Source: Rhizobium sp. Q54 (GTDB lineage: Bacteria > Pseudomonadota > Alphaproteobacteria > ATCC43930 > CGMCC-115725). From it: a stretch of DNA of 32,430 bases. A model generated the notes under the pieces. It worked only from the letters and a program-made list of their open reading frames with translations. It was not told the DNA's origin and ran no database searches. The stretch is from positions 1 to 32,430 of the forward strand of contig CAMATN010000049.1 of the NCBI GenBank assembly GCA_945861155.1, given 5' to 3'. Each line of letters begins with the position of its first letter. The stretch's first letter is position 1. A program made the translations under genes and the position numbers. Shown here piece after piece: positions 2,453 to 20,404 of this stretch.

Positions 2453-3904
2453 TCAGCGCACCAGCACCAGCGAGCAATTATGTCCGCCAAAGGCAAAGGC
2501 ATTGGCGACGGCCACGTTCACCTGATGATCGCGGGCGACGTTCGGCGCGTAGTCGAGGTCGCAGTCCGGGTCGGGCTCGTGATAGTTGATGGTCGGCGTG
2601 ATGACCCCATGGTGCAGGCTGAGCGCCACGATGCCGATCTGGATCGCCGAACTCGCGCCGATCGCGTGACCGAGCATCGATTTGTGCGCGCTGATCGTCA
2701 GGTCGCGGGCATGGCCGCCGAACACGGTCTTGATCGCCATGGTCTCGTTGGTGTCGTTGAGGCGGGTCGAGGTGCCGTGCGCGCTGATATAGCCGACCGC
2801 GTCGGTGTCAACCCGGGCGTCCCGCAAGGCGAGGCGCATCGTCTGCGACATGCCCTCGCCCAACGGCCGCGGCGTCACGACGTTGTAGGCTTCGCTGGTC
2901 TCGGCATGGCCGACGATGCGGGCATAGCTGCGAGCGCCGCGGCGGCGCGCGTGGGCCGGCGATTCGAGGACCAGGATCGCGCCGCCTTCGGCCATCACGA
3001 AACCGTCGCGCCCGCGATCGAACGGCCGGCTCGCGCTCTCCGGCGAGTCGTTGCGGGTCGACAGCGCGTGGATCTGGTTGTAGGCGTGGATCACAAACGG
3101 GTTGACCGTCGAGTCGCACGCCCCGGCGAGGACGATGTCGGCCTTGCCGGTCCTGATCCATTCGCATGCCGTGGCGATCGTCTGCGCGCCGGTGGCGCAG
3201 GCGACGCTGACGCTGGTCGAGGGCCCGCGCGCGCCGGCCCAGATGCTGAGCTGCGCCGCCGGCGCGTTGGTCATGTGCTTGATCACGTAATTGTGATCGA
3301 GCGCCGGCCACAGCGTGTTGCCCTGGCTGCGCAGGCGTTCGTTGACGTCGAGCAGGTAGTTGAAGCACCCGGCGCCGACGCCGACGGCGACGCCGAGGCG
3401 GGTGCGATCGAGATCGGCGAGGTCGAGGCCGGCATCTTCGATCGCCAGTACGCCCGACAGCATCGCGAATTGGGTAAAGCGGGCATACCGCTCGGGGAAC
3501 GGCATGCGGCAGCGGGCCTTGTAGACCGCCTCGAAATGCTCGGGCGCCTCGCCGGCAAAGCGTGTCGCGATCCCCGCGCTGTCCCAGCGCCGCGCGGCCT
3601 GGACGCCGGATCGGCCGGCGCACAACCCCTCCCAGCTTTCCTGCCAGCCGACGCCAAGCGGCGTCACCATGCCGATACCGGTGATCAGAACCTCGCCGTC
3701 TTCGCGACCGGCGCCCGGCCCGATGCCCGGCTCAACCATCGGGACCGCCGTGCGGATGTCGCCGCCGAGATAGGCGCCCATTACCCGCGCCTGAACCGCG
3801 AGGAACTCCCGCATCGTCTGGTGGTACTCGGAGAGGATCGGGTCATCGGGCGCGGCGCCGACGGGCGGCATGCCGCGCCGCGGATCGCGTGGTTCTCCCG
3901 CCAC
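2453..3904 (-). CDS. Beta-ketoacyl-ACP synthase (KAS II/FabF-like) with N-terminal extension
   Basis: This is a condensing enzyme of the thiolase fold that would extend an acyl-ACP by decarboxylative Claisen condensation. The core starts near residue 72 (VLITGIGMVTPLG) and carries the KAS I/II Cys-His-His triad: Cys236 in VACATGA, His376 in SAHGTST and His407 in SAHKSMLGHA. The C-terminal AFGGHN glycine-rich loop is intact, so it should be catalytically competent. The first ~70 residues are not part of FabF. Residues 26-46 (HQTMREFL...VMGAYL) resemble linker helices of modular polyketide synthases, which suggests descent from a PKS or a docking element. The start is a GTG four bases after the FAAL stop codon, with no clear ribosome site. 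ATG codons at residues 12 and 31 are alternatives. It is the last gene of the ACP-desaturase-methyltransferase-FAAL cassette. Function as a KS is secure; substrate and product are inference. Confidence 0.88.
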   Translation of the reverse strand: MAGEPRDPRRGMPPVGAAPDDPILSEYHQTMREFLAVQARVMGAYLGGDIRTAVPMVEPGIGPGAGREDGEVLITGIGMVTPLGVGWQESWEGLCAGRSGVQAARRWDSAGIATRFAGEAPEHFEAVYKARCRMPFPERYARFTQFAMLSGVLAIEDAGLDLADLDRTRLGVAVGVGAGCFNYLLDVNERLRSQGNTLWPALDHNYVIKHMTNAPAAQLSIWAGARGPSTSVSVACATGAQTIATACEWIRTGKADIVLAGACDSTVNPFVIHAYNQIHALSTRNDSPESASRPFDRGRDGFVMAEGGAILVLESPAHARRRGARSYARIVGHAETSEAYNVVTPRPLGEGMSQTMRLALRDARVDTDAVGYISAHGTSTRLNDTNETMAIKTVFGGHARDLTISAHKSMLGHAIGASSAIQIGIVALSLHHGVITPTINYHEPDPDCDLDYAPNVARDHQVNVAVANAFAFGGHNCSLVLVR

Positions 3905-3908
3905 GATG

Positions 3909-5612
3909 CTAGCTCACCGCCAGGGTTTGCTGTGCGAACAATTCGCGGCAGAGCTGGCGGCGCACCTTGCCGCTGGTGGTGCGCGGCAGGCTGCCGCGCT
4001 CGACGAAGGACACGACATCGACGGTATAGCCGGCATGGGTCAGTTCGCGGCGGATATTCATCCGCAGCCCGTCGCGCCCGGCGGCGTCCGATACATCGCG
4101 CGGCCGCGCCTCGGCCAGCACGACGATTTTCTCGGTCGCGCGCTCCTCATCGAACAAGCCGAACGCGGTAGCGCGGCGAACGCCGTCGACAAGGCAGACA
4201 AGCTCCTCCATCCGGTCCGGCGAATAGTTGCGGCCGTTTTTGATGATCAGATCCTTGCGGCGTCCGGTGACATAGATCTCGCCATCGGCGAGGTAGCCGA
4301 GATCGCCCGTGTCGAACCATTCCTCGGTGCGCCGGCGGAACGCGCCGGCCTCGATATACCCGGCATAAAGGCTCGCCGAGCGCAGCAGTATCCGCCCGAC
4401 GCGGCGATCCGGCCGCTCGGCGCCGTCATCGTCGGCGATCCGCAATTCGGTCCCGGCCAGCGGCGTCCCCGCCGACACCCAGGCGCGAGCGTCGTCGGCG
4501 GTTGTCTCGGCCGGAGTCGCGACCCCGAGCGTCTCGAAGGCGGTCCGCTCGATATGATCGACGCGGGGAATGCGCGGCTCGGGCGGGAAGCTGACCGCGA
4601 GCGTCGCCTCGGCCAGACCGTATACCGGACGCAGCGCCGTCGGCTTTAGCCCGAACCGGGTCAAATTGTCGGCCACGCTGCGGACAAAGCGCTGCGACAC
4701 CGGTTCGGCGCCGCAGATGATCTGATCGAGGCTCGACAAATCGCAGGAAACCGTCCTTCGGACCAACATCTGCATACAGGTTTGCAGCGCCGACGGCGGC
4801 GTCACCGTGATCGTCCCGCGGCCGGCTTCGATGATGCGGAACCATACTAAAGGCCCGTTGATGAATTGCCGCGTATCGAGCAGCGTCATCCGCGCGCCGA
4901 CCGCAAGCGGCGTCAGGAGACCGCCGAACAACCCCATGTCGTGATACATCGGCAGCCACGACACGAGGTGGTCGCGAGGCGTTATCGGCGCCCGCTGCGC
5001 GATCGCGTGCAGATTGGCGAGGATGGCCGGCCAGGTCAGCGCGATGCCGCGCGGTCGGCCGGTGCTGCCCGAGGTGAATTGCACATAGGCCGGGTCATGG
5101 GGACCGGCGATGTCGAGCGCTTTGTCGGAGGGCGGCGCGGCGAAGATCGCTTCGGGCGCCACGGTGGCGACGCTCGCGACCGGCAGCGGTTTTGCGGCGA
5201 CCGCCAGTCGCGGCGCCAGCGTCGCCACCAGTTCGGCGAGTTCCTGCCCGGCCGCGACGCCGTCGCCCGGTTCGCCGCCGGGGCCGCCGAACGCCGGCAA
5301 GGTCGACGGGACGATCCCAGCCGTAAAAGCGCCGAGGAGCAGGCCGAGATGATCGGGGCCGGTCGGCAGCATCAGCAGAATGCGATCGCCGCGCCGCAGA
5401 CCCAGCGCCTCGAGGCCGGCGCGGGCCCGCCGCGCGAGCCCGTCAAGTTCGGCCCAGGTCAGGGCGGTCGGCGGGCCGGCGCCGTCTTCGGCGAAAAGGA
5501 CCGCCGCCTCGCCGCCGCGCTCGACTGCCCGCCGGCGCAGCCGATCGAGGAGATGGTCACCCGGATGATGGCCCGAACGACTGCCCGGATCGCTGCCCGA
5601 CCAAGCGCTCAC
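3909..5612 (-). CDS. Fatty acyl-AMP ligase (FAAL-type adenylate-forming enzyme)
   Basis: This ANL-superfamily enzyme of 567 residues activates a fatty acid as acyl-AMP, most likely for transfer to the ACP encoded at 8280-8579. Visible motifs are TSGSTGRPRG (residues 180-189), SWLPMYHDMGL (218-228), the FAAL/FadD32-style A5 motif YGLAEAT (331-337), DTGDLGY (434-440), GRRKDLIIKNGRN (450-462) and C-terminal LPRTTSGK with the adenylation lysine at about 549. The YHDMGL and YGLAEAT forms favour a carrier-protein-loading FAAL over an acyl-CoA synthetase; this is inference from motif style. The open frame extends upstream to 6251, but that part overlaps the methyltransferase and reads as low-complexity shadow. 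The GTG at 5612 gives a GTGA overlap with the methyltransferase stop and the expected family length. Translational coupling with the upstream gene is likely. Confidence 0.87.
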   Translation of the reverse strand: MSAWSGSDPGSRSGHHPGDHLLDRLRRRAVERGGEAAVLFAEDGAGPPTALTWAELDGLARRARAGLEALGLRRGDRILLMLPTGPDHLGLLLGAFTAGIVPSTLPAFGGPGGEPGDGVAAGQELAELVATLAPRLAVAAKPLPVASVATVAPEAIFAAPPSDKALDIAGPHDPAYVQFTSGSTGRPRGIALTWPAILANLHAIAQRAPITPRDHLVSWLPMYHDMGLFGGLLTPLAVGARMTLLDTRQFINGPLVWFRIIEAGRGTITVTPPSALQTCMQMLVRRTVSCDLSSLDQIICGAEPVSQRFVRSVADNLTRFGLKPTALRPVYGLAEATLAVSFPPEPRIPRVDHIERTAFETLGVATPAETTADDARAWVSAGTPLAGTELRIADDDGAERPDRRVGRILLRSASLYAGYIEAGAFRRRTEEWFDTGDLGYLADGEIYVTGRRKDLIIKNGRNYSPDRMEELVCLVDGVRRATAFGLFDEERATEKIVVLAEARPRDVSDAAGRDGLRMNIRRELTHAGYTVDVVSFVERGSLPRTTSGKVRRQLCRELFAQQTLAVS

Positions 5613-6493
5613 AAATTCCCGCTCTTCTCGGCCGTGATCATGTGGCACACCGTGTGCCCGGAGCGGTAGGTGGCGAGTGCGATCATCAGATAGCGCCGCA
5701 GCATCAGATAGGCCCGCTCCGACAGCGCCCGCATCTCGTCGGCATGCGCGTCGAGGTTGACGAGCCACTGGGTCAGAGTGAGGACGTAGTCGCGGCTGAT
5801 GTTTTCGAGGCCGTACGGGACGAGCCCGGCTTCTTCCATCTCCAGCTGCATGCGGCCGGCCGACACCATGTCCATGGTGTAGCCAAAGGCCTGGTCGACT
5901 TCGCGGTTGCCGCGGTCGCCGAGATATTTTTCGCGCTTTGAATCCCGGTCGTAGTCGCTTTCTTGGACGAAGATCCGCCCGCCCGGCCTCAGCAAGGCGC
6001 AGCAGCGCTCGAAGATCTGCCGCTTTGGCGGCATGTGAATGATGCTCTCGAGGAACATCGTCGCGTCGAACGATTCCGCCGGATAGGGCATCGACAAAAC
6101 GCTGCAGACATCGATGTGGACCGCATCCCGCAATCCGCGCCGCTCGGCCCAGGCGAGACCGTATTCGCGCTGCACCGGGCTCAGCGTGACCCCGGTGACG
6201 CGCACGCCATATCGTTCGGCGAGATAGAGCGCCGGCCCGAACCAGCCGCACCCGACATCGAGCAGCCGCGCGCCGGGCTTGAGGTCGAGCCAGGCGGCCA
6301 CCTTGTCCATCTTGGCAATCTGTGCGCCGTCGAGGTCTTCGTCGCCGCGCGCGTAGACGCCGCTCGAATAATTCATGTTGCGGTCAAGCAGCAATTCGAA
6401 CATCCGCGGCGGCGTATCGTAATGCACCCCGCTATCGCCGATCGCTTCCGTCGGCACCGGATGCTGCCGGATGCGCCCGAGGATATTGGTCAT
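5609..6493 (-). CDS. Class I SAM-dependent methyltransferase, cyclopropane-synthase-like
   Basis: This 294-residue soluble methyltransferase has the SAM-binding motif I LLDVGCG at residues 77-83. The preceding segment (NYSSGVYARGDEDLDGAQIAKMD) resembles cyclopropane-fatty-acid synthases, which read NYSxxxF...L..AQ.AK. Residues 147-154 (FLESIIHM) hold the Glu and His positions seen in the MPBQ/sterol type of small-molecule methyltransferases. It is shorter than true CFA synthases (about 380-420 residues) because it lacks their N-terminal lipid-binding domain, so a carrier-bound acyl chain is a plausible substrate. Methyl branch, methylene or cyclopropane products are all possible and cannot be separated from sequence. 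The ATG overlaps the stop of the upstream desaturase-like gene (ATGA), and its own stop overlaps the FAAL start, which places it inside a tightly coupled operon. Confidence 0.82.
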   Translation of the reverse strand: MTNILGRIRQHPVPTEAIGDSGVHYDTPPRMFELLLDRNMNYSSGVYARGDEDLDGAQIAKMDKVAAWLDLKPGARLLDVGCGWFGPALYLAERYGVRVTGVTLSPVQREYGLAWAERRGLRDAVHIDVCSVLSMPYPAESFDATMFLESIIHMPPKRQIFERCCALLRPGGRIFVQESDYDRDSKREKYLGDRGNREVDQAFGYTMDMVSAGRMQLEMEEAGLVPYGLENISRDYVLTLTQWLVNLDAHADEMRALSERAYLMLRRYLMIALATYRSGHTVCHMITAEKSGNL

Positions 6494-7386
6494 ATCAGCG
6501 AGGCCTCTGCGGCGACGGGACGGCGCGAGCCGGCCATTTGCCGCGCGCGACCCTCTTTCAGCCGGCGGGTATGGACCGCCAATTCTCTCATCGTCGCGAT
6601 CGGGCTGCCGGCGAGCCGGGATAGCGTCGCCAAGACCTGACGACGCAGTTCCGCCTCGTCATCGTCGCGGATCGTCGACTGGATCATGACGCGGAATTCG
6701 GCGTACCCCTCGATGCGGTCGGTGACTGCGGCATCGAAGTCGCGGTCCGCCTTCATCGTCGTCGGATGCTTGTCCCCGGTCGGATTGAACAACATCCACT
6801 TGCAGGTCTGCATGAATTCGAGCAGCAGCTCCGGGCGCGCCGAGGCGGCTTCTTCCATGAATTCCTTGTAGCAGCCGGCGTGGCGGAATTCGTCATTGCC
6901 GATCAGGCGGTAGATCTGCGCCAGCACCGGTTCTTCCGCCTCGTCGCTCCAGCGGTGGTACCACATGCCAAGCCTCAGCTCGCCGCAATAGTGCAGCGCC
7001 AGGGTCGGCGGCCAGGGGGCGGGCGACAATTCGGTGTCGAGTTCGCCCAGAGATGCGACATCGGGCTCCAAATCCCACAGCTTCAGGTACTCGCGCAGCA
7101 CAAGGTAGTGCTTCATTTCCTCGTAGTACCAGATGCTCATGAACTGACAGAAATCGGGCATCTCGCGAAAGTCGCGCAAGAACATGCGCACCGCATAGAG
7201 CGACGACAGCTCCATCAGGCAGTTGATCCGCAGGAACCTCAGGGTCGTCGGCGAGACCAAAGTCTTGTCGACCGCGTCGAATTTGATGTCGGACAGGCTC
7301 CATCGCGCCTTCTCCAGGCGCCGGAACATCCGGTCGTAATGTGCCGCCGGGCTGGTCAAGCTTGCCAATCCTCCCTCGTTGGTCAC
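6490..7386 (-). CDS. Ferritin-like di-iron acyl-ACP desaturase-like protein (second of two)
   Basis: This helical 298-residue protein carries two di-iron ligand sets of the E...ExxH type: Glu59 and Glu90-x-x-His93 (EEMKH), then Glu136 and Glu166-x-x-His169 (DEFRH). The sequence around the first set (W..EE..H...LREYL) is like soluble acyl-ACP desaturases, which use O2 and electrons from a reductase to oxidise carrier-bound acyl chains. Hydroxylase or other oxidase chemistry is possible with the same fold. The reported GTG start has no ribosome site. A TTG at 7359 lies about 10 bases after GGGAGGA and may be the true start, which would shorten the protein by nine residues. The gene follows its paralogue by 11 bases and overlaps the methyltransferase start by 4. 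No ferredoxin or reductase gene is visible nearby. Confidence 0.8.
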   Translation of the reverse strand: MTNEGGLASLTSPAAHYDRMFRRLEKARWSLSDIKFDAVDKTLVSPTTLRFLRINCLMELSSLYAVRMFLRDFREMPDFCQFMSIWYYEEMKHYLVLREYLKLWDLEPDVASLGELDTELSPAPWPPTLALHYCGELRLGMWYHRWSDEAEEPVLAQIYRLIGNDEFRHAGCYKEFMEEAASARPELLLEFMQTCKWMLFNPTGDKHPTTMKADRDFDAAVTDRIEGYAEFRVMIQSTIRDDDEAELRRQVLATLSRLAGSPIATMRELAVHTRRLKEGRARQMAGSRRPVAAEASLI

Positions 7387-7397
7387 CGGACCGGGCG

Positions 7398-8252
7398 TTA
7401 TTGATGCGCCAGCGCGGGTTCGGGTGCGCTGGCGTTCGCCCGCGCGCCGGACATGCGTTTGGCGAGCCAGGCCGGATCCCGGAATTGGCGGAAATAATTG
7501 GTCAAATAAAGGATAAGTTCGGAGCGATATTCGGACGTCCAGAATTTCACATAGAGGTCGGTTCCCATGTCGTATTCGCCGAACATGGCAATGTGCTCCT
7601 GCGGCATCTGGTGGTCCTTGAAGAGGGCGCTGAACTGCGGCCAGATCTCCAGGCGCTCTTCCTGACTAACATTCTCGGCCAGGGCTTCGAGGCAGAGCTG
7701 GAAAAACCGGCAATGCCGGGTTTCATCCTTGGCCATGCGGCGCAGGAGCGATGCGACGTTGGGGTCCCCGGCCGCGTCGGCCACCGACGAGTAGGCGATC
7801 TTTGCCGAGTACTCCTGGACGACCCCGTAGACCAGCTGCTGGAGCCGCGAATCCATGCGATAGCCCTCGCGCTTCCGCGCGAGATATCCATCGGACGTTT
7901 CCTCATACCGTCCCTGTTCCAGCCCGTCATATTCGCCGGCGCTTATTTCCACGCCCAGGCCATCGAGAATAGTCCGCAGAACAATGCTGTGCAGATATTC
8001 TTCCCCGCCCCACATCGAGGCCCAGATGCCGAGCTTGTAATCGTCGCCATAGGCGCGGAAATAGCCCTTAACGTAATGGACGATGCCGTGCTCGTTCAGC
8101 GCCGTGCTGCGCATGAACCGGATGACGTCATCGGGCACCAGCGCCCGATCGAACTTCATCTTGGAGATCTCGCCAAGATCGGGCCACATGTTGCGGCCAC
8201 GGATAAAGAATTCGTCGAGCATCTTGGTGTCATGCCAGCTGGCGACGCGCAT
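7398..8252 (-). CDS. Ferritin-like di-iron acyl-ACP desaturase-like protein (first of two)
   Basis: This is a 284-residue helical protein of the soluble acyl-ACP desaturase type. Both di-iron ligand sets are present: Glu54 with Glu85-x-x-His88 (GGEEYLH) and Glu147 with Glu177-x-x-His180 (KDETRH). The spacing, and the W...W..EE..H...LR.IL pattern, match the desaturase fold. Expected role is O2-dependent oxidation (desaturation, or possibly hydroxylation or acetylenation) of an acyl chain held on the neighbouring ACP. The ATG at 8252 is preceded by AAAGGAG at good spacing. It lies 27 bases after the ACP gene and 11 bases before a second, clearly diverged paralogue. The two may act in series or as a pair. 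Fold and metal site are well supported by sequence; the exact reaction is not. Confidence 0.82.
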   Translation of the reverse strand: MRVASWHDTKMLDEFFIRGRNMWPDLGEISKMKFDRALVPDDVIRFMRSTALNEHGIVHYVKGYFRAYGDDYKLGIWASMWGGEEYLHSIVLRTILDGLGVEISAGEYDGLEQGRYEETSDGYLARKREGYRMDSRLQQLVYGVVQEYSAKIAYSSVADAAGDPNVASLLRRMAKDETRHCRFFQLCLEALAENVSQEERLEIWPQFSALFKDHQMPQEHIAMFGEYDMGTDLYVKFWTSEYRSELILYLTNYFRQFRDPAWLAKRMSGARANASAPEPALAHQ

Positions 8253-8279
8253 CGATAGGCTCCTTTACAAACTAATCGA

Positions 8280-8579
8280 TCAGATCGACCGGCCCGAGGT
8301 TTTTTCCATGATCAGTTCAACCGCGTCGCCGACCGTGACGATGCGCTCGAACAGATTGATATCCGAGCCGAGTCTGACCCCGAACTCTTCCTCGACCCCA
8401 AGCACGACATCCACCATGCCTAACGAATCAACGTTAAGATCGTCGCGCAGGCGCGACGAGGGCTGGATCGTCGCCGGGCTCTCGAGCGCGAGGATCTGCT
8501 GCAAAAGCTGTTGAACCCTGAGGAGCACCGCGTCTCTTCCGGCCGCGGGAATGCCTGTAGGAGAAAAACTAGCCGCCAT
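8280..8579 (-). CDS. Acyl carrier protein
   Basis: This 99-residue carrier protein has the phosphopantetheine attachment serine at Ser52 in the DSL motif (DDLNVDSLGMVDVV), followed by the acidic helix VVLGVEEEFG typical of ACPs. It would be converted to holo form by a 4'-phosphopantetheinyl transferase encoded elsewhere, and it would carry the acyl chain for the desaturases, methyltransferase and KS of this cassette. The frame is open further upstream, but the ATG at 8579 is preferred. It has GGAG about 10 bases upstream, and the extra residues would run through the leader hairpin. A ~19-residue N-terminal tail precedes the first ACP helix. It is the first gene of the cassette, so the promoter should lie in 8580-8696. 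Confidence 0.9.
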   Translation of the reverse strand: MAASFSPTGIPAAGRDAVLLRVQQLLQQILALESPATIQPSSRLRDDLNVDSLGMVDVVLGVEEEFGVRLGSDINLFERIVTVGDAVELIMEKTSGRSI

Positions 8580-8597
8580 TCTTTGTTGCTCCAAGAC

Positions 8598-8623
8598 GTA
8601 ACGCGGCGCTGTGGCCGCGTTAC
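8598..8623. promoter_or_regulatory. Perfect inverted repeat in the leader of the lipid cassette
   Basis: The arms gtaacgcggc (8598-8607) and gccgcgttac (8614-8623) are exact complements with a 6-base spacer. The element ends 18 bases before the ACP start codon, just upstream of its ribosome site. It could be an operator for a dimeric repressor, an mRNA hairpin controlling ACP translation, or a terminator for cobM, which ends at 8697 on the same strand. There is no T-run after it on the minus strand, which argues against an intrinsic terminator. The symmetry is directly visible; the role is inference. Confidence 0.6.
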
Positions 8624-8696: not shown

Positions 8697-9449
8697 TCAG
8701 CCGGGCCGCAGCACATGGTGGTGGTCGGCGGCGTAGAGGCGGCTGTCGCTCCCCTCGCCCGCGAGTGCCCGACCGACCAGGATTAGCGCGGTCCGCGTGA
8801 TTCTGGCTCGCTTGGTCTGGTCGCGGATGTCGGCGAGGGTGCCGCGGATCAGCAATTCGTCCGGCCAGCCGACCCGGTAGGCGACGACCGCCGGGCAATC
8901 GCCGCCGTAATGCGGCAAAAGCGCCCGCACGACCCGCGCGATATTAGCGATCGACAGGTGGATCGCCAGAGTTGCGCCGGTCGCCGCGAGGCGGTCGAGG
9001 CTTTCGCCTGCGGGCATCGCCGAGGCGCGGACCGCGGTGCGCGTCAGGATCACGGTCTGCGCCACATCCGGCAGCGTCAGCTCGCGTCGCAGCGCCGCCG
9101 CCGCCGCCGCGAAGGCCGGCACGCCGGGGGTCACGTCGAAGGCGATGCCGAGCGCGTCGAGCCGGCGCATCTGCTCGCCGATCGCGCCATAGAGCGACGG
9201 ATCGCCCGAATGCACCCTGGCGACGTCGAGCCCGCCGCGATGCGCCGCGGCGATTTCGTCGATGATCTCGTCGAGCGTCAGCTTCGCGGTATCGACGACC
9301 CGCGCGCCGGGCGGAGCCGCGGCGACAATCGCTTTCGGCACCAGTGAGCCGGCGTAGAGGCATACCGGGCAGCGCTCGATCAGGCGCAGCCCGCGCACCG
9401 TGATCAGATCGGGCGCGCCCGGTCCGGCGCCGATGAAATGCACCGTCAT
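8697..9449 (-). CDS. cobM: Precorrin-4 C11-methyltransferase
   Basis: This SAM-dependent tetrapyrrole methyltransferase of 250 residues methylates C11 of precorrin-4 (CobM/CbiF family). The N-terminal motif [16 protein letters not shown], the YAGSLV segment, [10 protein letters not shown] and the [11 protein letters not shown] stretch are all characteristic of CobM rather than of the C17, C20 or C5/15 enzymes. The ATG overlaps the stop of the upstream cbiG-cobJ fusion by four bases (ATGA), so it is translationally coupled and is the last gene of the second cob operon. The stop is about 117 bases before the ACP start of the lipid cassette. Confidence 0.92.
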
Positions 9450-11383
9450 TGGTTTCCCGGGGCTGGTCCCGGCGCTGGCGCGCCGTCGAAATAACCGCGC
9501 GGCGTGTAAAGGCGGGGCGGGTCGCCGGCGATCAGCCGGGTATGAATGCTGCCGACCAGCACCAGGCTCAGCATGTCGACATCGGCATCGGCAAGCTCAT
9601 CGAGCCGCACAATCCGGTGCGTCTCGCCGGCCCGGCCGAGATTGCGCGCGATCACGCAAGGGGTTTCGGGCGGGCGATGCGCGAGGAGGATCGCGGCGGT
9701 CTCGGCCAGACGCGCCGCCCGTCGCGCCGAGCGCGGATTGTAAAGCGCGACGACGAAATCGGCGCTCGCCGCCGCCTCGACGCGGGCGCGGATCCGATCC
9801 CACGGGGTCAGCAGATCGGACAGCGAGATCGCGCAGAAATCGTGGCCGAGCGGCGCCCCGACCCGGGACGCCGCCGCCTGCATCGCGCTGACCCCAGGGG
9901 CGACGGCGATGTCGACCGCCGACCAATCGCGGCGCCGCTCGCGGTCGAGCAGCTCGAAAACGAGGGCGGCGAGGCCGTAAATACCGGGGTCGCCCGACGA
10001 GACGAGCGCCACCGAACTGCCCGCGGCGGCGAGGTCGAGCGCGAGCCGCACCCGAGCGGTTTCCTCGCCGATCGCGCTGTCATGGCGGCGCTTGCCTTCG
10101 ATCGCGCGGCCGAGCAGGTCGAGATAGAGCCGATACCCGACGACATCGTCGGACGCGGCGAGCATCGCGCTGGCCTCGGGGGTACGCCAGGCCGGGTCGC
10201 CTGGCCCGCTGCCGATGATCGCGAGGCGCCCGCGCGGCCGGCCGATCGCGGTCGCGTCGATGGCGCCCGGGGCGCGCGCGATGGCGCAGGTCGCGCGCCG
10301 CGACTGGCGGCGCGGCACGACGAGGTCGCCTTCCGGCCCGACCGCGGCCAGCGCCGCGCCCTCGGCGACGCCCCAGCAGCCGGTCGCGCGAAACGCGGCT
10401 TCGGAGCGGATCGTCAGGCGTGCGGTCTCGTCCAACAGACGCGAGGCCGGGAAAAACCGCGCCGGAACCGCCAACGCCTCGGCCAGGGCCTGGATTGCGG
10501 GTTCGTCCGCCTTGATGTCAATGGAGACGATAGCGGCCACGGCTCCGGCCGCGAGCCCGGCTTGCGCAAGCGTGTCGCGCACCAATGCGGCGATCTCCTC
10601 GGCCGCACAGCCGCGCTCGCAGCCGATCCCGAGCGCCAGCACCGGGGGGTGAAAAATCAGCGCTTCCGCGTCGGCGGCGGCGGCCCGATCGGTGACGACG
10701 ATTTGCAGACCCTCACCCGCCCTCGGGCTTCGCCCTCGCGCCCCCTCTCCCGCATTGCGGGAGAGGGGGGGACCCATCGCTTTTGCGATGGGGGGGTGAG
10801 GGCTGTCGGCCCAGCGCACCGATCCCATACGCAGCCAATCCGCCCGAACGCCTTCTTCGACAAGCGCGACCGCCTCGCCGGCGAGCAGCGCGGCGGCGAC
10901 CGGTTTGACCCGCACGGGGTTGGCGATACGCCAGCCCGGCGGCGGCTCGTCGAGCGCGAAACCGAGCCGCAGATCCCCGGCCGTCGTGATCGCGGCCACG
11001 CAGCCAAGATCGCCGGCCAATGCCTCGGCGAGGGCGCGGGCAAGCGCGTTGGCCCCGCGATGCCCGCCGAGCAGCGGCACCGCGACCGAGCCGTCCTCGG
11101 CCAGCGCGACGACCGGCGGCTCGACCCGCTTGTCGTCGATCAGCGGCGCCAGCGCCCGGATCAGGATGCCGCTCGCGCACAGGCCGATGATCGGCCGGCC
11201 GGCGGCGAACAATTCGGCGAGGAGCGGCATGACGCGGTCATAGGCTTCGTCCCATTCCCCAGGCTGCGCGCGCGGCCCGAACAGCCGCGCTCCAGGCAGG
11301 AGGCCGCGCACCCGCTGGCCGAGCGCGGCCCCGCCCGGCCCCAAGACGACCACCGCCACGCCGTTCGGCAGCGCCGGTTTCAT
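9446..11383 (-). CDS. cobJ: CbiG/CobE - CobJ fusion: cobalamin protein CbiG and precorrin-3B C17-methyltransferase
   Basis: This is a 645-residue fusion. Residues ~1-190 form the CbiG N-terminal and central part ([27 protein letters not shown]). Residues ~225-365 form the CbiG C-terminal/CobE domain ([10 protein letters not shown]...). Residues ~385-635 are CobJ/CbiH, with [35 protein letters not shown] and [10 protein letters not shown]. CobJ methylates C17 with ring contraction; CbiG in the anaerobic route opens the lactone of cobalt-precorrin-5A. A palindromic repeat (10710-10802) is read in frame as residues ~194-225, exactly between the CbiG central and C-terminal domains. The start overlaps the cobI stop by four bases and the stop overlaps the cobM start by four. 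The fusion puts two consecutive-pathway activities in one chain. Confidence 0.9.
10710..10802. repeat. Palindromic repeat element inside cbiG-cobJ
   Basis: The outer arms ccctcaccc (10710-10718) and gggtgaggg (10794-10802) enclose a 13-bp perfect hairpin ccccctctcccgc / gcgggagaggggg (10741-10753, 10757-10769) and a second hairpin cccatcgc-tttt-gcgatggg. The whole element keeps the reading frame open and encodes the Gly/Arg/Pro-rich stretch [13 protein letters not shown]. The same ctctccc-cgc style recurs in cobQ and cobN in this window. Confidence 0.85.
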
Positions 11384-12159
11384 CCGCTCGCTCCCCGATC
11401 GGGCCGGATCGTCGATTCGCCCGGGTGGATCAGCGCCATCGCGAAATAGGGGACGCTCGCCGGATCGACCGTCGCGAGCGGCGCGACCCGTTCGCTCGGC
11501 AGGCTCGCGTGCTCGACATAGATCGCGCCGTCGAGCAGCCCGAGCCGTTCGAGGACCCGCCGCAACTTCGCAAAATGCCGCCCGAGCTTGATCACCGCGG
11601 CGCCGTCGCCGGGGTCAACCGCCGCGAGGCGCCGGGCGAGCGCGTCCTCGCCGAGCGTGGCCGGGATCACCGACAGGATCGCGTCGCGCTGGACCAGCGG
11701 CAATGCAGCCGCCGCGGCGCATGCCGTCAGCGACGACACTCCGGGCACGATCGTCACCCGGTAGCGCTCGGCGAGTTCTGCGAAAATGCCGGCGAAGCTG
11801 CCGTAAAACAGCGGGTCGCCCTGGCACAGACAGGCGACATCGCCGCCCCGGTCGAGCACGGCGGCGATCTCCGCCGCGGCCGCCCGATAGATCGCGGCGG
11901 GCGGCGGTCCGGGCTGCATCGGAAAGCGGATCGCGATCTCGGGTTGGCCGCGATCGAGCCATTGCGCGACGATCCCGCGGGCAAAGCTGTCGCCGCTCTC
12001 GGGCGCCGGATAGACGACGACCGCGGCGGCGCGCAACAGCCGCAGCGCCTTCAGCGTCACCAGTTCGGGGTCGCCCGGCCCGAGCCCCAGCCCATATAGC
12101 TGCCCGCTTGCCATTTCAGCCTGGGCCATCTCCGCTGCCATCTCAGCCGGGGGCGACAT
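11380..12159 (-). CDS. cobI: Precorrin-2 C20-methyltransferase
   Basis: This SAM-dependent methyltransferase of the CobI/CbiL type methylates C20 of precorrin-2 (or its cobalt form). Recognition rests on LYGLGLGPGDPELVTLKA near the N-terminus, CQGDPLFYGSF, and VPGVSSLTACAAAAALPL. Length from the first ATG is 259 residues. The first ~15 residues (MSPPAEMAAEMAQAE) are not conserved-looking and contain further ATG codons. A start at 12114 giving MASGQLYGLG would fit the family best and would remove the 17-base overlap with the upstream glycosyltransferase gene. The stop overlaps the cbiG-cobJ start by four bases. Confidence 0.9.
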   Translation of the reverse strand: MSPPAEMAAEMAQAEMASGQLYGLGLGPGDPELVTLKALRLLRAAAVVVYPAPESGDSFARGIVAQWLDRGQPEIAIRFPMQPGPPPAAIYRAAAAEIAAVLDRGGDVACLCQGDPLFYGSFAGIFAELAERYRVTIVPGVSSLTACAAAAALPLVQRDAILSVIPATLGEDALARRLAAVDPGDGAAVIKLGRHFAKLRRVLERLGLLDGAIYVEHASLPSERVAPLATVDPASVPYFAMALIHPGESTIRPDRGASG

Positions 12160-13816
12160 CGTACAGCGTCAGCACCATGCGCTGGCCATTCGAGTAATCG
12201 AGCCCGCGCACGCTGCCGCGCGGCTGCGCGACAAGGCCGCGCACACTCAGCGCCTGCAGAAACATCGCCTCCTCCCGGCTGCCGACCAGGGCTTCGCCGC
12301 CGCCTTGAAGCGCCTCGGCCGCGCCGCGCGGGGTGGTCAGCCGCACATCCGTGCCGAGCAGAAAGACCAGGCTCGGCTCGCTGTAGCCGACCGCGACCAG
12401 GCGAGTCCCGGCGGTCGGCTTGTGTTGCGCCACCAGTTCCGCCGCGGCGCGGCTGAGCCACAGCCTATCGAGGCCGGGCAGCACGCCGAGCGCGGCCGGC
12501 GTGACAAACGCCAGCGCGAGCGCCGCCAGCAGCCCGGTGGTCCCGGCCGGAGGCGCTCGATAATGGAGGACCGCCGCCATCCCCGCGAGCAGCAACCCGG
12601 CGCCGAGCACGCCGGCCAGCGCGATCTCGCTGCCAAAACGCAGCGGCAACCCGATCAGCGCCGCCGCCAGCGCGACCGTCACCACGACCCACAATGCCTT
12701 GACCAATATATCGACGCGCCGCGGCCAGCTTCGCGGCGCGAAGCGGACGCCGTCGGCCAGCGCGGCGGCGGCCAGCAGGGCCAGCGCCGGGTAAAGCGGC
12801 AGCACGTAATGCGGCAGCTTGGTCGGAACCAATTCGAGCAACACCCAGGCCGGCGCCAGCCACGCGAGCAGGAAGCGCTCCGCCGGCATGTCGCGCCGCC
12901 GCCAGCCCCGCACCAGCGCCGGCACCAGCAACAGCGAGCCCGGCCAGAACGTCGCGCAGGTCAGCAGCAGATACGAGAACGGCGGCGCGCCGTGCGATTC
13001 CTGGGCGCCGATCAGCTTTGTCATCAAATCCCCGCCGAGCGCGTCGGCGACAAACCTTCCCTCGGTGGCCTGCTCGATCGCGACCAGCCACGGCGCCACG
13101 GCGACGACCAGGGCGAGCAACCCGGCCACCGGGTAGAGGCCGCGCAACCAGCGCAGATCGCGATCTGCGATCGACAGCGCCGCCGCCGTCACCAACGCCA
13201 GGGCCGGCCCCGCCGGGCCTTTCAGCAGGATCGCGGCGATCTGTGCGCCCCAGAACACCACGGCGATCCAGCCGGGGACCGGTTGGCGGGCGCGGCGGAG
13301 CACATAGGCGAGACCGAGCGCACCCTGCCCGGCCGTCACCGCGGCCAGCAGCATCGCGTCCGTCTTGGCGATGTGCGCCTCGGCCACGACCCCGAGGCAG
13401 CTGGCCAGCAGCACCGCCGCGATCAGCGCAACGCGACGCGCGGTCAGCGGGTCTGCCTCGCCGCGCGACATCGCGGCGCCAAACGCGAAGACCAGCAGCG
13501 CCGCCGCCGTCGCGCCGATCAGCGAGGGCAGCCGGTACGGCCAGATCGCGGTGCTCGCCGGGCTGCTGAAGGCGCTGACCGAGGCGGCTTGCAGCCAATA
13601 GATGCCGGCCGGTTTTTTGTTGCGCGCCTCGTCCTGGAAGCGGATGCGCAGGAAATCGCCGGTTTCCAGCATCTGCCGCGTCGCCTGGGCAAACCGGGCT
13701 TCGTCGCGGTCGAGCACGGGGACCCCCGACATGCCGGGCAGATAAAGCAGCAGACACAGCGCCAGGATTATCCCATAGGGCCATGCGCCATCCCGCCAGC
13801 CCCGCGACCCCGGCAT
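12143..13816 (-). CDS. ArnT/PMT-family integral membrane glycosyltransferase
   Basis: This 557-residue polytopic membrane protein resembles the glycosyltransferase family that includes ArnT (lipid A aminoarabinose transferase) and other polyprenyl-phosphate-sugar users. After a first transmembrane helix (residues ~13-29) comes the periplasmic motif VLDRDEARFA (residues 34-43), whose Asp-Glu pair is typical of the active site. RNKKPAGIYWLQAAS and later VPTKLPHYVLPLYPALALL also match the family. About a dozen hydrophobic segments are visible. It would move a sugar from an undecaprenyl-phosphate donor to an acceptor on the periplasmic side. It starts two bases after the cobL stop and runs into cobI, so it is co-transcribed with B12 genes although no corrin step needs it. 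The open frame upstream of 13816 lies over cobL and is shadow. Donor and acceptor are unknown. Confidence 0.83.
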   Translation of the reverse strand: MPGSRGWRDGAWPYGIILALCLLLYLPGMSGVPVLDRDEARFAQATRQMLETGDFLRIRFQDEARNKKPAGIYWLQAASVSAFSSPASTAIWPYRLPSLIGATAAALLVFAFGAAMSRGEADPLTARRVALIAAVLLASCLGVVAEAHIAKTDAMLLAAVTAGQGALGLAYVLRRARQPVPGWIAVVFWGAQIAAILLKGPAGPALALVTAAALSIADRDLRWLRGLYPVAGLLALVVAVAPWLVAIEQATEGRFVADALGGDLMTKLIGAQESHGAPPFSYLLLTCATFWPGSLLLVPALVRGWRRRDMPAERFLLAWLAPAWVLLELVPTKLPHYVLPLYPALALLAAAALADGVRFAPRSWPRRVDILVKALWVVVTVALAAALIGLPLRFGSEIALAGVLGAGLLLAGMAAVLHYRAPPAGTTGLLAALALAFVTPAALGVLPGLDRLWLSRAAAELVAQHKPTAGTRLVAVGYSEPSLVFLLGTDVRLTTPRGAAEALQGGGEALVGSREEAMFLQALSVRGLVAQPRGSVRGLDYSNGQRMVLTLYDVAPG

Positions 13817-13818
13817 GG

Positions 13819-15039
13819 TCAGCCGGGCTTGGTCGCGGCGAGCTGGGTCACGCTCAGCAGCGGGCGCCAGGCCTGATGGTCGCCCAGCTTCGCCGCCCGG
13901 CTGACCGCGATCCGGGTCAATTCGCCGCCGTAGCTTGCCTGCCAATCGAGCACCGCGCGCTCGCCCGCGATGCTGACGACATTGGCGACGAGCCGCCCGC
14001 CCGGTCGCAACGCCGCCCATAGGGCCGGCAACAATTCGGGATCGCCGATGCCGCCGCCGACAAAGATCGCGTCGGGCCGGGGCATGTCGGGGGAAAGTTC
14101 GGACAGCGCCCGCGGCGCCGCGGCAATGATGATCCGCAGCCCCGGCACGCCGAGCATCGCGGCGTTGCGCGCGATCATCGCGGCGCGTCCCGGGTCGCGC
14201 TCGACCGCGAGCGCCGCGCCGCTCGGGTTGGCGCGCAGCCATTCGATCGCGATCGAGCCGCAGCCGGCGCCGATATCCCACAGAGTCTCGCCCGGCAGCG
14301 GCGCGAGAAGCGCCAGGGTCGCCGCCCGGACTTCGCGCTTGGTCAGCTGCCCGTCATGCTCGAACGCCTCGTCGGGCAGCCCGGCGAGGCGCGACAGGGC
14401 GCCGGCGCCGGGGGCTGTCTCGCATTCGAGCGCGATCGTGTTCAGGTCTGATGTGTCGCGCTCGTTCCAATCCTGCGCCGTGAAGCTGACGACCGCCTCG
14501 CGCGGGCCGCCGAGATGCTCGAACACGGTCATCCGGCTCGGCCCCCAGCCGCACGCGGCGAGCAGACGCGCCACCGCGCGCGGGGTCGTCCCATCCTCCG
14601 ACAGCAGCAGCACGCGCGCGCCGGGCGCGAGATGCAGGCGCAAGCCGTCGAGCGGCCTTCCATGGAGGCTCACCGTCGCGCACTCCGCGAGCGCCCAGCC
14701 CTGGCGGGCGGCGGCGAGGCTGAAGGCCCCCGGATGCGGCACGATCGTCATCTCCTCGCGGCGAAAATGGCGCGCCAGCGTAGCGCCGACCCCGTACCAT
14801 AGCGGGTCACCGCTCGCCAGCACCGTGACCCTTGAGCCGCGCCGCGCCGCGATAGCGGCGATGCTGTCGGCCAGCGGCTGACGCCATGCGAGGCACTCCG
14901 CGTCGCTCTCCGGGACCAGCGCCAGATGGCGGGCGCCGCCGACCAAAACCTGCGCGGTCTCGATCAGGGTGCGCGCGGCGGGGGCGAGCCCGGCGAATCC
15001 ATCTTCGCCGATGCCGACGACGCTGAGCCAGCGCGTCAT
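13819..15039 (-). CDS. cobL: Precorrin-6Y C5,15-methyltransferase (decarboxylating)
   Basis: This is a fused CbiE-CbiT enzyme of 406 residues. The N-terminal half (SVVGIGEDGFAGL, LASGDPLWYGVG, PHPGAFSLAAARQGW) is the C5-methylating CbiE domain. The C-terminal half (LTKREVRAATLALL, ETLWDIGAGCGSIAIEWLR, DAIFVGGGIGD) is the CbiT domain that methylates C15 and decarboxylates the C12 acetate. The ATG at 15039 overlaps the cobH stop as ATGA and puts MTRWLSVVGIGEDG at the N-terminus, as expected. The longer open frame to 15069 would start inside cobH without a ribosome site. It is followed two bases later by the glycosyltransferase. Confidence 0.92.
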   Translation of the reverse strand: MTRWLSVVGIGEDGFAGLAPAARTLIETAQVLVGGARHLALVPESDAECLAWRQPLADSIAAIAARRGSRVTVLASGDPLWYGVGATLARHFRREEMTIVPHPGAFSLAAARQGWALAECATVSLHGRPLDGLRLHLAPGARVLLLSEDGTTPRAVARLLAACGWGPSRMTVFEHLGGPREAVVSFTAQDWNERDTSDLNTIALECETAPGAGALSRLAGLPDEAFEHDGQLTKREVRAATLALLAPLPGETLWDIGAGCGSIAIEWLRANPSGAALAVERDPGRAAMIARNAAMLGVPGLRIIIAAAPRALSELSPDMPRPDAIFVGGGIGDPELLPALWAALRPGGRLVANVVSIAGERAVLDWQASYGGELTRIAVSRAAKLGDHQAWRPLLSVTQLAATKPG

Positions 15040-16760
15040 CGGGAGGCCGCGGGGCGGGGTTCGCCGCACAGCGCGTTGAGCGCCGCGGCGGCCAGCGCGC
15101 TGCCGCCGCGCCGGCCGCGCAGTGTGACATAGGACAAGCCGCGGCCGAACCCGGAGAGCGCCTCCTTCGCCTCGGCGGCGCCGACAAACCCGACCGGAAA
15201 GCCGAGCACGAGGGCCGGCTTATCCGCCCCCTCCGCCAACATCTCGAGCAGGCGGAACAGTGCCGTCGGGGCATTGCCGATCGCGACGACCGCGCCGGCC
15301 AGATATGGCCGCCACAATTCGACCGCCGCGGCGCTGCGGGTCGTGCCCTGCGCCGCGGCAAGGGCGGCGACCGCGGGGTTGCGCAAGGTGCAGATCACCT
15401 CGTTGCCCGCGGGTAGACGAGCGGTAACGATGCCGGCCGCGACCATCGTACTGTCGACGAGGATCGCCGCGCCGCTCGCCATCGCGCGACGACCCGCCTC
15501 GGCGGCGCCGCGCGACCAGGCGAGATCGGCGAGGATGGCAACGTCGCCCGCGGCATGCGCCAGCCGCACCGCCAGCGGGCGGAGCGAGACGGGGAATCGC
15601 GCCAGATCGGCTTCGGCCCGGACCAGCGCGAACGAGCGCCGATAGATCGCCGCCGGATCGCGCAGGTAGGTGTATGCCGGGATTTTGGCGAGAGATCTCG
15701 ACGAGCGGACCGAGATTGCCGCGTCGCTCCGCTCCTCGCAATGACAGCTTCCTGCTGCCACGCCATTGCTGTCCTCTGCTACTCCTTTGCTGTCATTGCG
15801 AGCGAAGCGAAGCAATCTCGGGACAGCGTGCTTGGACGACGGCGAAAGCGCGAGCCGCGACTGTTTCGGAGCGGTCACCCCGAGCGTCCACGCTTCTTCC
15901 GTCTCGATGATTGTGCGCTGTTGTGCGGTCAGCGCCGGATCGCCATCAAACAGCGCCGCCAATTCCCCGGCCTGGTCGCGCGCGGCGAAAAACCGGGCGA
16001 CGTCGCGGACCTGCGCGGCATCCTTGGGCTCGTTCGGCTGCGGCGCGATCCGCCACAGCGAGGGGTAGATTTCGGCCATCACAACCCCGACGCCCTCCTC
16101 CGGGGCTCGCAACCCGGTCTCGAACGGCCAAACGCGAATGCGGCCCTGCCAGCGCGGATCGTCGCGCAGCGCCCGCACCACCGGAATCCCGGTCAGCGCC
16201 TGCCCGCCGACCGATCCAGTGCCGAGCAGTTTCCAGCACGGCTGCGTCGTCGGCACATAGACATCGATCAGCCGGCGCTCGACGAGGCCGCCCGCTTGAT
16301 GGAGCCGATGGTGGGTCGGCGCGAGATACGGTCCCGCCGCGGCGCTCGGGCATCCCCAGAACGGGAAGGCGCCCCGCGACACGCGCCGATTGAGGTCGGC
16401 GGCGACCGCGAAGCGGTTGTTGCGGTTTTTCGCATCGTCCTCGATCAGACCGGCGATCTCGTCCCACACCGCGCGCCAGGGCCGACCGGAGAGGCCGAGC
16501 CGGGCGGCAAACCCGGCCGGGTAGCCGAACGGGAAATCGCACCCGACCAGTACGCGCTCGCCCCCGGCCACCGCGTCGGCGAGGATCTCCAGCAGGGTTT
16601 CCCGGGCGGCATGGCGGGTCGGCGGGTTGAGCAGCCGCTCGCCCGCTTTGCCATGCCGGCAGATCCAGATGCTGTCGCGCCCGGTCTTCGGCTGCCCCGC
16701 CGCGCTCCAGTCGACGATCACGAAGGTGTCGAACAGCGTGCCCTGCTCCGCGTCAGTCAT
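15036..16760 (-). CDS. cobH: Fusion of a DUF429-like domain with precorrin-8X methylmutase
   Basis: This is a 574-residue fusion. Residues ~358-574 are CobH/CbiC (IPAYTYLRDPAAIYRRSF, VRLAHAAGDVAI with the catalytic-type His402, GFPVGFVGA, GRRGGSALAAA), which migrates a methyl group from C11 to C12 to give hydrogenobyrinic acid. Residues ~10-298 form a separate domain with acidic motifs VIVDWSA (Asp17), VGCDFPFGYPAGF (Asp75) and VMAEIYPSLW (Glu230). Their order resembles DUF429-type RNase-H-like domains; this is inference and the function is unknown. Between them, residues ~314-350 are encoded by a palindromic repeat (15711-15820) and contain LLRFARND and CEERSDAAIS. The ATG overlaps the cbiX stop by eight bases, and the stop overlaps the cobL start by four. 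Confidence 0.87.
   Translation of the reverse strand: MTDAEQGTLFDTFVIVDWSAAGQPKTGRDSIWICRHGKAGERLLNPPTRHAARETLLEILADAVAGGERVLVGCDFPFGYPAGFAARLGLSGRPWRAVWDEIAGLIEDDAKNRNNRFAVAADLNRRVSRGAFPFWGCPSAAAGPYLAPTHHRLHQAGGLVERRLIDVYVPTTQPCWKLLGTGSVGGQALTGIPVVRALRDDPRWQGRIRVWPFETGLRAPEEGVGVVMAEIYPSLWRIAPQPNEPKDAAQVRDVARFFAARDQAGELAALFDGDPALTAQQRTIIETEEAWTLGVTAPKQSRLALSPSSKHAVPRLLRFARNDSKGVAEDSNGVAAGSCHCEERSDAAISVRSSRSLAKIPAYTYLRDPAAIYRRSFALVRAEADLARFPVSLRPLAVRLAHAAGDVAILADLAWSRGAAEAGRRAMASGAAILVDSTMVAAGIVTARLPAGNEVICTLRNPAVAALAAAQGTTRSAAAVELWRPYLAGAVVAIGNAPTALFRLLEMLAEGADKPALVLGFPVGFVGAAEAKEALSGFGRGLSYVTLRGRRGGSALAAAALNALCGEPRPAASR
15711..15820. repeat. Palindromic repeat element at the DUF429-CobH domain junction
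   Basis: The left arm at 15711-15747 (cgagattgc...cgcaatgacag) and the right arm at 15790-15820 (ctgtcattgcg...gcaatctcg) are imperfect reverse complements separated by about 42 bases. The core gcaatgacag / ctgtcattgc is exact. This sequence type is a common dispersed intergenic repeat in alphaproteobacteria and gives the well-known spurious peptides CEERSDAAI and LRFARND. Here it is read in frame inside a functional-looking gene. Confidence 0.88.
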
Positions 16761-17664: not shown

Positions 17665-17720
17665 GCCTGATACTCCCGACGGTTGATTGCGGCCGCGGCG
17701 CGACCAAGATTGGCGTTCCG

Positions 17721-18731
17721 ATGACCCTTCCCGACCTGCACGACCCACTCCTGCTGTTGCTCGCCGGTCTGGCGATCGACGCGGCGTTCGGCGACATGCC
17801 GGCGGTGTTTGCCCGCGTGCCGCACCCGGTCGCGCTGGCCGGCCGCGCGGTTGCGTTCGCCGAGCGCAAGCTCAACCGCCCGCAGCGCGGCGATGAGCGC
17901 CGCCGCGAGCGCGGCATCGCGACGGTCGTCGTGCTGGTCGGCGCCGCCGCCGGGCTCGGCTGGGGACTGCATTGGCTGTGCCGCTTCAGCCTCGCGGGCG
18001 CGCTCGTCGAGGCGCTGGCGATCGGCATTCTGCTGGCGCAGCGCGGCCTCCATCAGCATGTCGCCGCCGTCGCGGTCGCGCTCGAACAAGGCGGGTTGCC
18101 GGCCGGCCGGGCGGCGGTCAGTCACATTGTCGGGCGCGACCCGGCGCGGCTCGACCGGCACGGCGTCGCGCGTGCCGCGATCGAAAGCCTCGCCGAGAAT
18201 TTCAGCGACGGCGTCGTCGCGCCGGTCTTCTGGTACCTGGTCGGCGGCCTGCCGGGCCTCTTCGCGTATAAGATGGCGAACACGCTCGACAGCATGATCG
18301 GCCATCGCTCGGAGCGCTACCGCGCCTTCGGCTGGGCGGCGGCCCGGTTCGACGATCTGCTGAACCTGGCGCCGGCGCCGCTCAGCGGCCTGTTGCTGTC
18401 CGCGGCGGCGCTGTTGACCGGCGACGCGCTGGCGGGGCGGGCAATCGCGATCATGCGGCGCGACGGGCGCCGGCATCGCTCGCCGAACGCCGGCTGGCCC
18501 GAAGCGGCGATGGCGGGCGCGCTCGGCCTCGCCCTCGCCGGACCGCGCCATTATGCCGAAGGGGTCGTGGCCGACCCGTGGATCGGCGAGGGCACGCCGG
18601 ACGCTACCCCGGCCGACATCGCGCGAGCGCTGCGGCTTTATGTGACGGCGTGCCTGCTGCTGGGCGGCCTCGTGCTCGGGACATGGGTGCTCGGGGCGTG
18701 GCTGGCGGGGCATGTCACGCGGCCCGGATGA
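17721..18731 (+). CDS. cobD: Adenosylcobinamide-phosphate synthase (CobD/CbiB), membrane protein
   Basis: This 336-residue inner-membrane enzyme joins adenosylcobyric acid to (R)-1-aminopropan-2-ol or its phosphate. Family motifs are visible: LAIDAAFGD and [10 protein letters not shown] near the N-terminus, then [37 protein letters not shown] and [23 protein letters not shown]. Several hydrophobic segments are present, including one at the C-terminus. It is the only plus-strand gene in the cob locus, transcribed divergently from cbiX. Its stop overlaps the 3' end of convergent cobQ by 17 bases. The ribosome site ahead of the ATG is weak. Confidence 0.93.
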
Positions 18732-20274: not shown

Positions 20275-20296
20275 TTCCCCCGACCCCAAACAACAC

Positions 20297-20391: not shown

Positions 20392-20404
20392 ATAGGGGGG
20401 AACA

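Follow-up and report, generated by a model that had tools for sequence, protein, structure and literature searches.

A six-gene cassette shared by a rhizobial genome and Planctomycetota: a candidate pathway for fatty acid tailoring on a dedicated acyl carrier protein

The DNA analyzed here, referred to as the window, comprises bases 1-32430 of contig CAMATN010000049.1 from the assembly of Rhizobium sp. Q54 (GCA_945861155.1; 4.88 Mb, 226 contigs, 96.9% complete). It carries a run of six genes for an acyl carrier protein (ACP), two di-iron proteins (DI2 and DI1), a methyltransferase (MT), a fatty acyl-AMP ligase (FAAL) and a ketosynthase (KS). This cassette is a conserved unit, and a chance arrangement is excluded, as a second phylum has the genes in this order. 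The six genes probably represent a real and so far uncharacterized lipid pathway. Judged from the protein families, there is an even chance that they form a conserved operon in which a fatty acid is tailored while being tethered to the dedicated ACP. No description of the six-gene set was found in full-text searches of an open-access library, which agrees with an earlier note on this DNA that had not recognized this exact set as a characterized pathway.

The reactions, their order and the product proposed in the following are read from the protein families. The FAAL would convert a free fatty acid to its acyl-AMP and load it onto the holo-ACP, where DI1 and DI2 would use O2 to oxidize the chain at two places, either by desaturation or by hydroxylation. 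The MT would subsequently methylate the chain, most likely at a hydroxyl, or at the alpha carbon after the KS step. Finally, the KS would take the chain onto its cysteine and condense it with malonyl-ACP. The KS would thereby serve as exit, as its product, residing on the ACP that had carried malonate, could enter core fatty-acid synthesis for reduction and use in lipids.

Conservation and distribution of the cassette

The six genes are uninterrupted open reading frames (ORFs) on the minus strand between positions 2453 and 8579 (Table 1), and their products match the Pfam families PP-binding, FA_desaturase_2 (twice), CMAS, AMP-binding and ketoacyl-synt. They are spaced by 27 bases (ACP/DI2), 11 bases (DI2/DI1) and 4 bases (FAAL/KS), with overlaps of 4 bases at DI1/MT and at MT/FAAL; the 11-base gap and the two overlaps are as the earlier note had described. 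Its outer limit at 8623 had to be corrected, as no in-frame start of the ACP lies there; the in-frame starts are TTG 8675, GTG 8627 and ATG 8579, of which ATG 8579 is favored by an alignment with relatives.

A DI1 profile scan of named genomes yielded 581 loci, of which the best 80 were examined, and more cassettes may exist. Among these 80 loci, many of which lie on short contigs, one contained the cassette: L101 from the metagenome-assembled genome of Planctomycetota bacterium isolate Ust_12 (JAAESM010000074.1; DI1 match of 59%) has all six genes in the same order, with 38-56% identity to those of the window. More than 20 others of the 80 carry a cyclopropane fatty acid (CFA) synthase-like methyltransferase, and a FAAL match was present in two (L174 and, weakly, L154). 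In the class of L101, DI2 was found at E ≤ 1e-12 in seven of 154 genomes. All seven planctomycete loci exhibit the order ACP-DI2-DI1-MT-FAAL, which amounts to eight of eight loci including the window (one FAAL is truncated by a contig end). Co-occurrence of the families in this order, a check proposed in the earlier note, is seen for all six in L101 and for the first five in these seven genomes. The KS directly follows the FAAL in L101, L189, L190, L191 and L192, and hence in six of eight loci including the window. In G885 the contig ends inside the FAAL, and on a second contig a KS match of 55% comes after the terminal part of a FAAL. This second contig is probably the remainder of the same cassette, so that the KS would be present in seven of the eight loci.

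Identities between the aligned window and planctomycete proteins were 37-42% for the ACP, 41-49% for DI2, 52-57% for DI1, 50-57% for the MT, 38-43% for the FAAL and 43-48% for the KS (for which the alignment and identity table are without L193 and L194). In phylogenetic trees the cassette KSs (seven sequences), FAALs (eight) and MTs (eight) were each separated from outgroups of our choice with a bootstrap of 100. All ten KS outgroups were used, ten of 13 FAAL loci gave a sequence (L005, L006 and L007 did not) with L072 being left out, and all 14 MT outgroups were CFA/CMAS-like. As no MitM/RebM-type sequence was included, the MT tree is silent on whether the MT is affiliated to CFA or to MitM/RebM. 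The FAAL tree places the window outside all planctomycete copies and the MT tree groups it with L194 (support 90), which is a small conflict. Between L101 and L189 the ratio of nonsynonymous to synonymous substitution rates (dN/dS) was 0.016-0.071 for DI2, DI1, MT, FAAL and KS, a rough estimate given a dS of 1.4-2.4 and its basis in this pair and five genes, without the ACP and without L101-L190 pairs. Neighboring genes showed similar values (GNAT 0.082, cyanophycinase-like 0.027), and the low dN/dS is therefore not special to the cassette.

Within the order of the host a close DI2 match was restricted to its own genome (one of 43), and paralogs with 24-33% identity occurred in 32 of the 42 other genomes. 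A DI1 search of 385 genomes of the host's class returned homologs with 21-32% identity from 101 others, and a search of 398 genomes of its phylum gave matches of 34-45% in 14 others, all of them beta- or gammaproteobacterial homologs. None of the 14 neighborhoods of the latter included a match to FAAL, KS, ACP or a separate DI2; a CFA-like methyltransferase (60-79 bits) was located near four of them. A sample of 246 genomes of the phylum Planctomycetota contained one positive, which was G782 itself. Scanning the named genomes with the window DI2 alone yielded eight pattern matches, none of them a relative, and missed L101, which is part of this collection; single-protein scans are thus insensitive. 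The plasmid search returned one weak record for DI2, four records for DI1, none for the DI2 of L101 and 312, all below 60%, for the MT of L101. Conservation of the gene set in related genomes, on which the earlier note had made its proposal depend, is therefore found in Planctomycetota with the same order, but not in the host's own order. These searches, which sampled genomes that are in part incomplete, gave one cassette copy outside Planctomycetota, and such a scattered occurrence in two phyla is suggestive of horizontal transfer. The GC content fits weakly with this idea (cassette 65.4% versus 69.5% in the remaining window; ACP and DI2 near 59.5%, KS and FAAL 69%).

Carrier protein, ligase and di-iron proteins

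The DSL serine of the ACP reported before is present within a VDSLG motif and is kept in eight of eight aligned cassette copies. For the ligase, a search of the PDB returned the FAAL 3pbk first (233 bits, E 4.9e-68) and further FAAL entries next, with 4-coumarate--CoA ligase at 101 bits, and its alignment to 3pbk crosses the insertion region with two-residue gaps only. The interval between the YGxxE and DTxD motifs was used as a proxy for the FAAL insertion. It spans 98 residues in the window (YGxxE-to-DTGD) and 98-100 residues in seven of the eight cassette FAALs (the eighth being truncated by a contig end), versus 62-87 residues in five other ANL ORFs; four FAAL-like outgroups did not match the pattern. 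By its PDB matches this ANL enzyme thus appears to be nearer to FAALs than to acyl-CoA ligases, with NCBIfam being ambiguous (see below), and its previous assignment as FAAL-type ligase can be kept.

DI2 scores above the PF03405 cut-off of 22.7 bits and DI1 one bit below it (Table 1). The ligand set E, ExxH, E, ExxH, on which both had been described as di-iron proteins, is intact and kept in DI1 and DI2 of eight of eight loci. The predicted structure of DI1 (predicted local distance difference test, pLDDT, 85.7) is nearest to the solved folds of plant acyl-ACP desaturases (4v0j_F; Z 18.7, root mean square deviation 3.6, 247 residues aligned), followed by R2-like oxidases (Z 17.0) and DesA2 (Z 15.8), and DI1 is accordingly predicted to have an acyl-ACP-desaturase fold. 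The assignment of DI2 as di-iron acyl-ACP-desaturase-like protein rests on its sequence. An identity of both proteins as AurF-type N-oxygenases was considered and rejected: neither matched PF11583 within E 0.1, and in both the residue four positions ahead of the last ExxH glutamate is not the histidine that serves AurF as extra ligand. Burkholderiales homologs of DI1 do match PF11583, below its cut-off. PHROGs contained no match for DI1 or DI2.

Methyltransferase

The MT had been called CFA-like, which holds for its family and fold (PF02353) but not for its bicarbonate site. While the glycine-rich S-adenosylmethionine (SAM) motif is retained, the positions corresponding to C139, E239, H266, I268 and Y317 of E. 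coli Cfa are occupied by S, I, Q, S and Y in eight of eight cassette MTs. As four of the five residues are replaced, cyclopropanation is disfavored, and a function as cyclopropane synthase was rejected on these residues despite the CFA-synthase-family fold. The residues of this site (H167, E140 and Y232 in CmaA1) are described as strictly conserved in CFA and cyclopropane mycolic acid (CMA) synthases in the excerpted text of PMC9821293; all papers on known systems are cited here from excerpts. A CMAS-family gene from a plasmid, taken as yardstick, likewise carries Q and S at two of these five positions. In the PDB, the leading matches of the MT were MitM (82.9 bits), 3bus (RebM; 76.8 bits) and, in fourth place, a mycolic acid synthase (75.8 bits), and the sequence alone does not choose between a proximity to MitM/RebM and one to mycolic acid synthase.

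These data bear on the idea of a mycolate-like toolkit, in which the chain would be desaturated and then, with SAM, C-methylated or cyclopropanated at the double bond, leading to a branched or cyclopropanated product. The kinds of enzymes would match AcpM, DesA1/DesA2, CmaA/MmaA, FadD32 and KasA/KasB (PMC12845086), the MT reaches 131.2 bits with the CMAS family and has mycolic acid synthase among its PDB matches, and the DI1 model resembles DesA2. However, the replaced bicarbonate site in all eight MTs speaks against such chemistry, with the reservation set by the yardstick gene, and we consider this idea quite unlikely.

Ketosynthase and release of the chain

The intact Cys-His-His triad of the KS, as noted before, is kept in six of six aligned copies. 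The protein matched the FabF-type NCBIfam model NF005589 with 412.6 bits (cut-off 387) and TIGR03150 with 434 bits, which is under its cut-off of 493.75. Its N-terminal extension is absent from the planctomycete cassette KSs in the alignment of six KSs, and the REFLAVQARVMGAYLGG stretch within it was unique to the window KS in a motif scan of the listed loci. The extension may act as a docking helix or as a dimer helix. A search of the host's own genome (96.9% complete) returned no housekeeping FabF; at E ≤ 1e-30 the only matches were the cassette KS (434 bits) and a polyketide synthase (PKS)-type frame of 2500 residues elsewhere in the genome (C138). All five relatives searched possess a housekeeping FabF (640-658 bits). 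The missing FabF most likely reflects an assembly gap; it is conceivable that FabF was lost and that the cassette KS is standing in.

The reaction of a KS itself moves the chain to another ACP. As the product would sit on the ACP that carried malonate, no thioesterase would be needed in the proposed pathway. The absence of a release enzyme from the cassette, emphasized by the earlier note, is less problematic than it had appeared, since the KS itself moves the chain and a GNAT-like gene adjoins the cassette in four of seven planctomycete loci (L101, L189, L190 and L194; in L191 that side ends at the contig end). Two of these GNAT-like genes were scanned, one of which lies just under the Pfam cut-off. 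Together with L194, which has no KS adjoining its FAAL, the GNAT-like neighbors point to another possible exit. One such route would start with the KS condensing the oxidized chain with malonate, after which the MT would methylate the alpha carbon of the beta-ketoacyl-ACP and an alpha-methyl-beta-keto lipid would be released by an acyltransferase (GNAT) or spontaneously. Besides the GNAT-like genes, the lack of the bicarbonate site in the MT would fit this route, as the authors of work on AmxMT1 suggest such chemistry for that enzyme (PMC9821293). Yet L194 keeps its MT without an adjacent KS, and no GNAT homolog was found in the host's own genome, an empty search result which alone shows nothing. 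This route appears unlikely, though somewhat less so than the mycolate-like one.

Comparison with known systems

In mycobacteria, desaturases, SAM methyltransferases, KasA/KasB and FadD32 take part in making mycolate from meromycolyl-AcpM (PMC12845086). This set shares with the cassette an ACP, two soluble desaturase-type proteins, a CMAS-family methyltransferase, a FAAL and a FabF-type KS (PMC12845086). It differs in that the cassette consists of six genes in an operon-like run, has an MT without the bicarbonate site and occurs in other phyla. Among the neighbors scanned, which in the window comprise cobalamin genes and the gene of a LonB-like protease, no Pks13-type gene was found beside the FAAL.

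The afc cluster of Burkholderia (AFC-BC11) contains, according to the excerpts, the FAAL AfcA, a single carrier protein, the acyl-ACP-desaturase-like proteins AfcD and AfcN, of which AfcN is essential, and an O-methyltransferase (PMC12186527), and the bolagladin (bol) cluster contains the acyl-ACP-desaturase-like BolL (PMC7756342). A FAAL together with acyl-ACP-desaturase-like proteins is thus common to afc and the cassette, and the window DI1 shares 34.6% and 42.5% identity with the di-iron proteins beside the FAAL in L069 and L072, respectively, which would be AfcD-like. Unlike the cassette, afc includes adenylation, decarboxylase, citrate-synthase and KAS III-like genes (PMC12186527). No adenylation-domain protein or pyridoxal-phosphate decarboxylase was detected beside the FAAL or carrier among the 17 window ORFs scanned.

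The modified chain might alternatively serve, in analogy to the afc and bolagladin clusters, as starter unit of a small molecule, with the genes required for the latter lying elsewhere. A FAAL adjoins a DI1-like gene in three Burkholderia loci (L069, L072 and L174), a FAAL and a related di-iron gene are neighbors in three Myxococcota loci, and the KS of L191 is adjoined on the opposite strand by genes for an AMP-binding enzyme and an EamA transporter. However, no nonribosomal peptide synthetase or PKS gene was present among the neighbors scanned, which cover part of the ORFs, and the flanks differ between loci (cobalamin genes in the window versus cyanophycin-like genes in L101, L189 and L190). 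A role in a secondary-metabolite cluster is therefore improbable in our view.

In Myxococcota, three of 195 genomes exhibited a DI2 match of 31-33% with a FAAL nearby, and these three loci contained no match to the MT or to a second di-iron protein. They suggest a wider theme of acyl tailoring by FAAL plus di-iron proteins. In L201, L202 and L203 the FAAL lies near an ORF of 420-479 amino acids, part of which resembles di-iron acyl-ACP desaturases. In L202 the two are separated by a 4HBT thioesterase, and L203 has an ACP as well as an ORF that is alpha/beta hydrolase-like.

Two further systems share parts of the chemistry. UfaM, UfaD and UfaO of Rhodobacter sphaeroides and R. palustris methylate a fatty acyl chain with SAM, desaturate it and oxidize it in an O2-dependent manner (PMC7380195). 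They differ in acting on the acyl chains of phospholipids, for which the three genes suffice without FAAL, ACP or KS (PMC7380195). In the type II fatty-acid synthesis (FASII)/ladderane clusters of anammox bacteria, AmxMT1, a SAM methyltransferase without bicarbonate site that probably alpha-methylates beta-ketoacyl-ACP, binds a special ACP (AmxACP3), whereas the clusters include radical SAM enzymes and neither a FAAL nor a di-iron pair is named for them in the excerpted text (PMC9821293).

Several observations weigh against the tailoring of an ACP-bound fatty acid by the cassette. As L194 lacks a KS beside its FAAL, the proposed hand-back step by the KS cannot be universal, and the window KS is with 43.1% nearly as similar to a Thermomicrobium FabF, which was not among the sequences of the KS tree, as to the planctomycete cassette KSs. 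In NCBIfam, the model named for a CoA ligase ties for the best score of the FAAL (NF005850 'long-chain-fatty-acid--CoA ligase' 338.9 bits versus NF006624 'fatty acyl-AMP ligase' 338.0 bits, both under cut-off). The AlphaFold model of DI2, which derives from a two-sequence alignment, is poor (pLDDT 44.4), and no electron-donor gene lies within the cassette. Furthermore, resemblance to desaturases in sequence is no proof of an acyl-ACP substrate. As far as the excerpts go, lysine is the target of AfcC, a membrane protein and putative desaturase of the afc cluster, and AfcD, which is acyl-ACP-desaturase-like, is dispensable there (PMC12186527).

Genomic setting

Table 1. Cassette features in the window (positions of the window; bits, Pfam scores).
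Feature	Position	Strand	Characteristics
ACP	8280-8579	minus	99 aa from ATG 8579; VDSLG phosphopantetheine serine; PF00550 30.1 bits
DI2, di-iron protein, acyl-ACP-desaturase-like	7398-8252	minus	E54, E85xxH88, E147, E177xxH180; PF03405 34.4 bits
DI1, di-iron protein, predicted acyl-ACP-desaturase fold	6490-7386	minus	E59, E90xxH93, E136, E166xxH169; PF03405 21.7 bits
MT, SAM methyltransferase, CMAS family, without CFA bicarbonate site	5609-6493	minus	PF02353 131.2 bits
FAAL, fatty acyl-AMP ligase, GTG start	3909-5612	minus	PF00501 191.8 bits; PDB FAAL 3pbk
KS, FabF-type ketosynthase	2453-3904	minus	Cys236, His376, His413; PF00109/PF02801; NF005589
KS N-terminal extension, about 70 residues, with REFLAVQARVMGAYLGG stretch	3695-3904	minus	alignment of six KSs

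Upstream of the cassette and on the same strand lies cobM (8697-9449), and beyond the KS a gene for a LonB-like protease extends past the end of the window. From 8697 to 26144 the window contains a long cobalamin run of cobM, a cbiG/cobJ fusion, cobI, a cbiE/cbiT-type gene, a cobH fusion, cobO, cobN and cobW; an ORF inside this run (12143-14281) has a partial match to ArnT, below cut-off. The window CobN is about 54% identical to CobN of Shinella, Sinorhizobium and Sphingobium, which makes an alphaproteobacterial origin likely. The contig may be misbinned; the link of the cassette to alpha-type cobalamin genes on the same contig would stand. Promoter and terminator predictions were not above chance. 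In L101 (6337-20121), L189 and L190 the cassette is located among IadA-like, cyanophycinase-like and cyanophycin-synthetase-like genes, which were named by reading the sequence alone.

Biological significance

Taken further, the cassette might represent a transferable pathway by which Gram-negative bacteria tailor ACP-tethered lipid chains, assembled independently of the meromycolate system and parallel to it. It would make an undescribed oxygenated and methylated fatty acid (e.g., a methoxy or alpha-methyl chain), with its own KS as exit gate to general fatty-acid synthesis. We regard this wider picture as tentative and put it at clearly less than even odds. The six genes are few enough to be expressed jointly in the laboratory, with lipid mass spectrometry as readout. 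If the proposed pathway is right, a compact route to an unusual fatty acid would be added for two phyla, and how an acyl chain may leave a dedicated ACP without a thioesterase could be put to the test.

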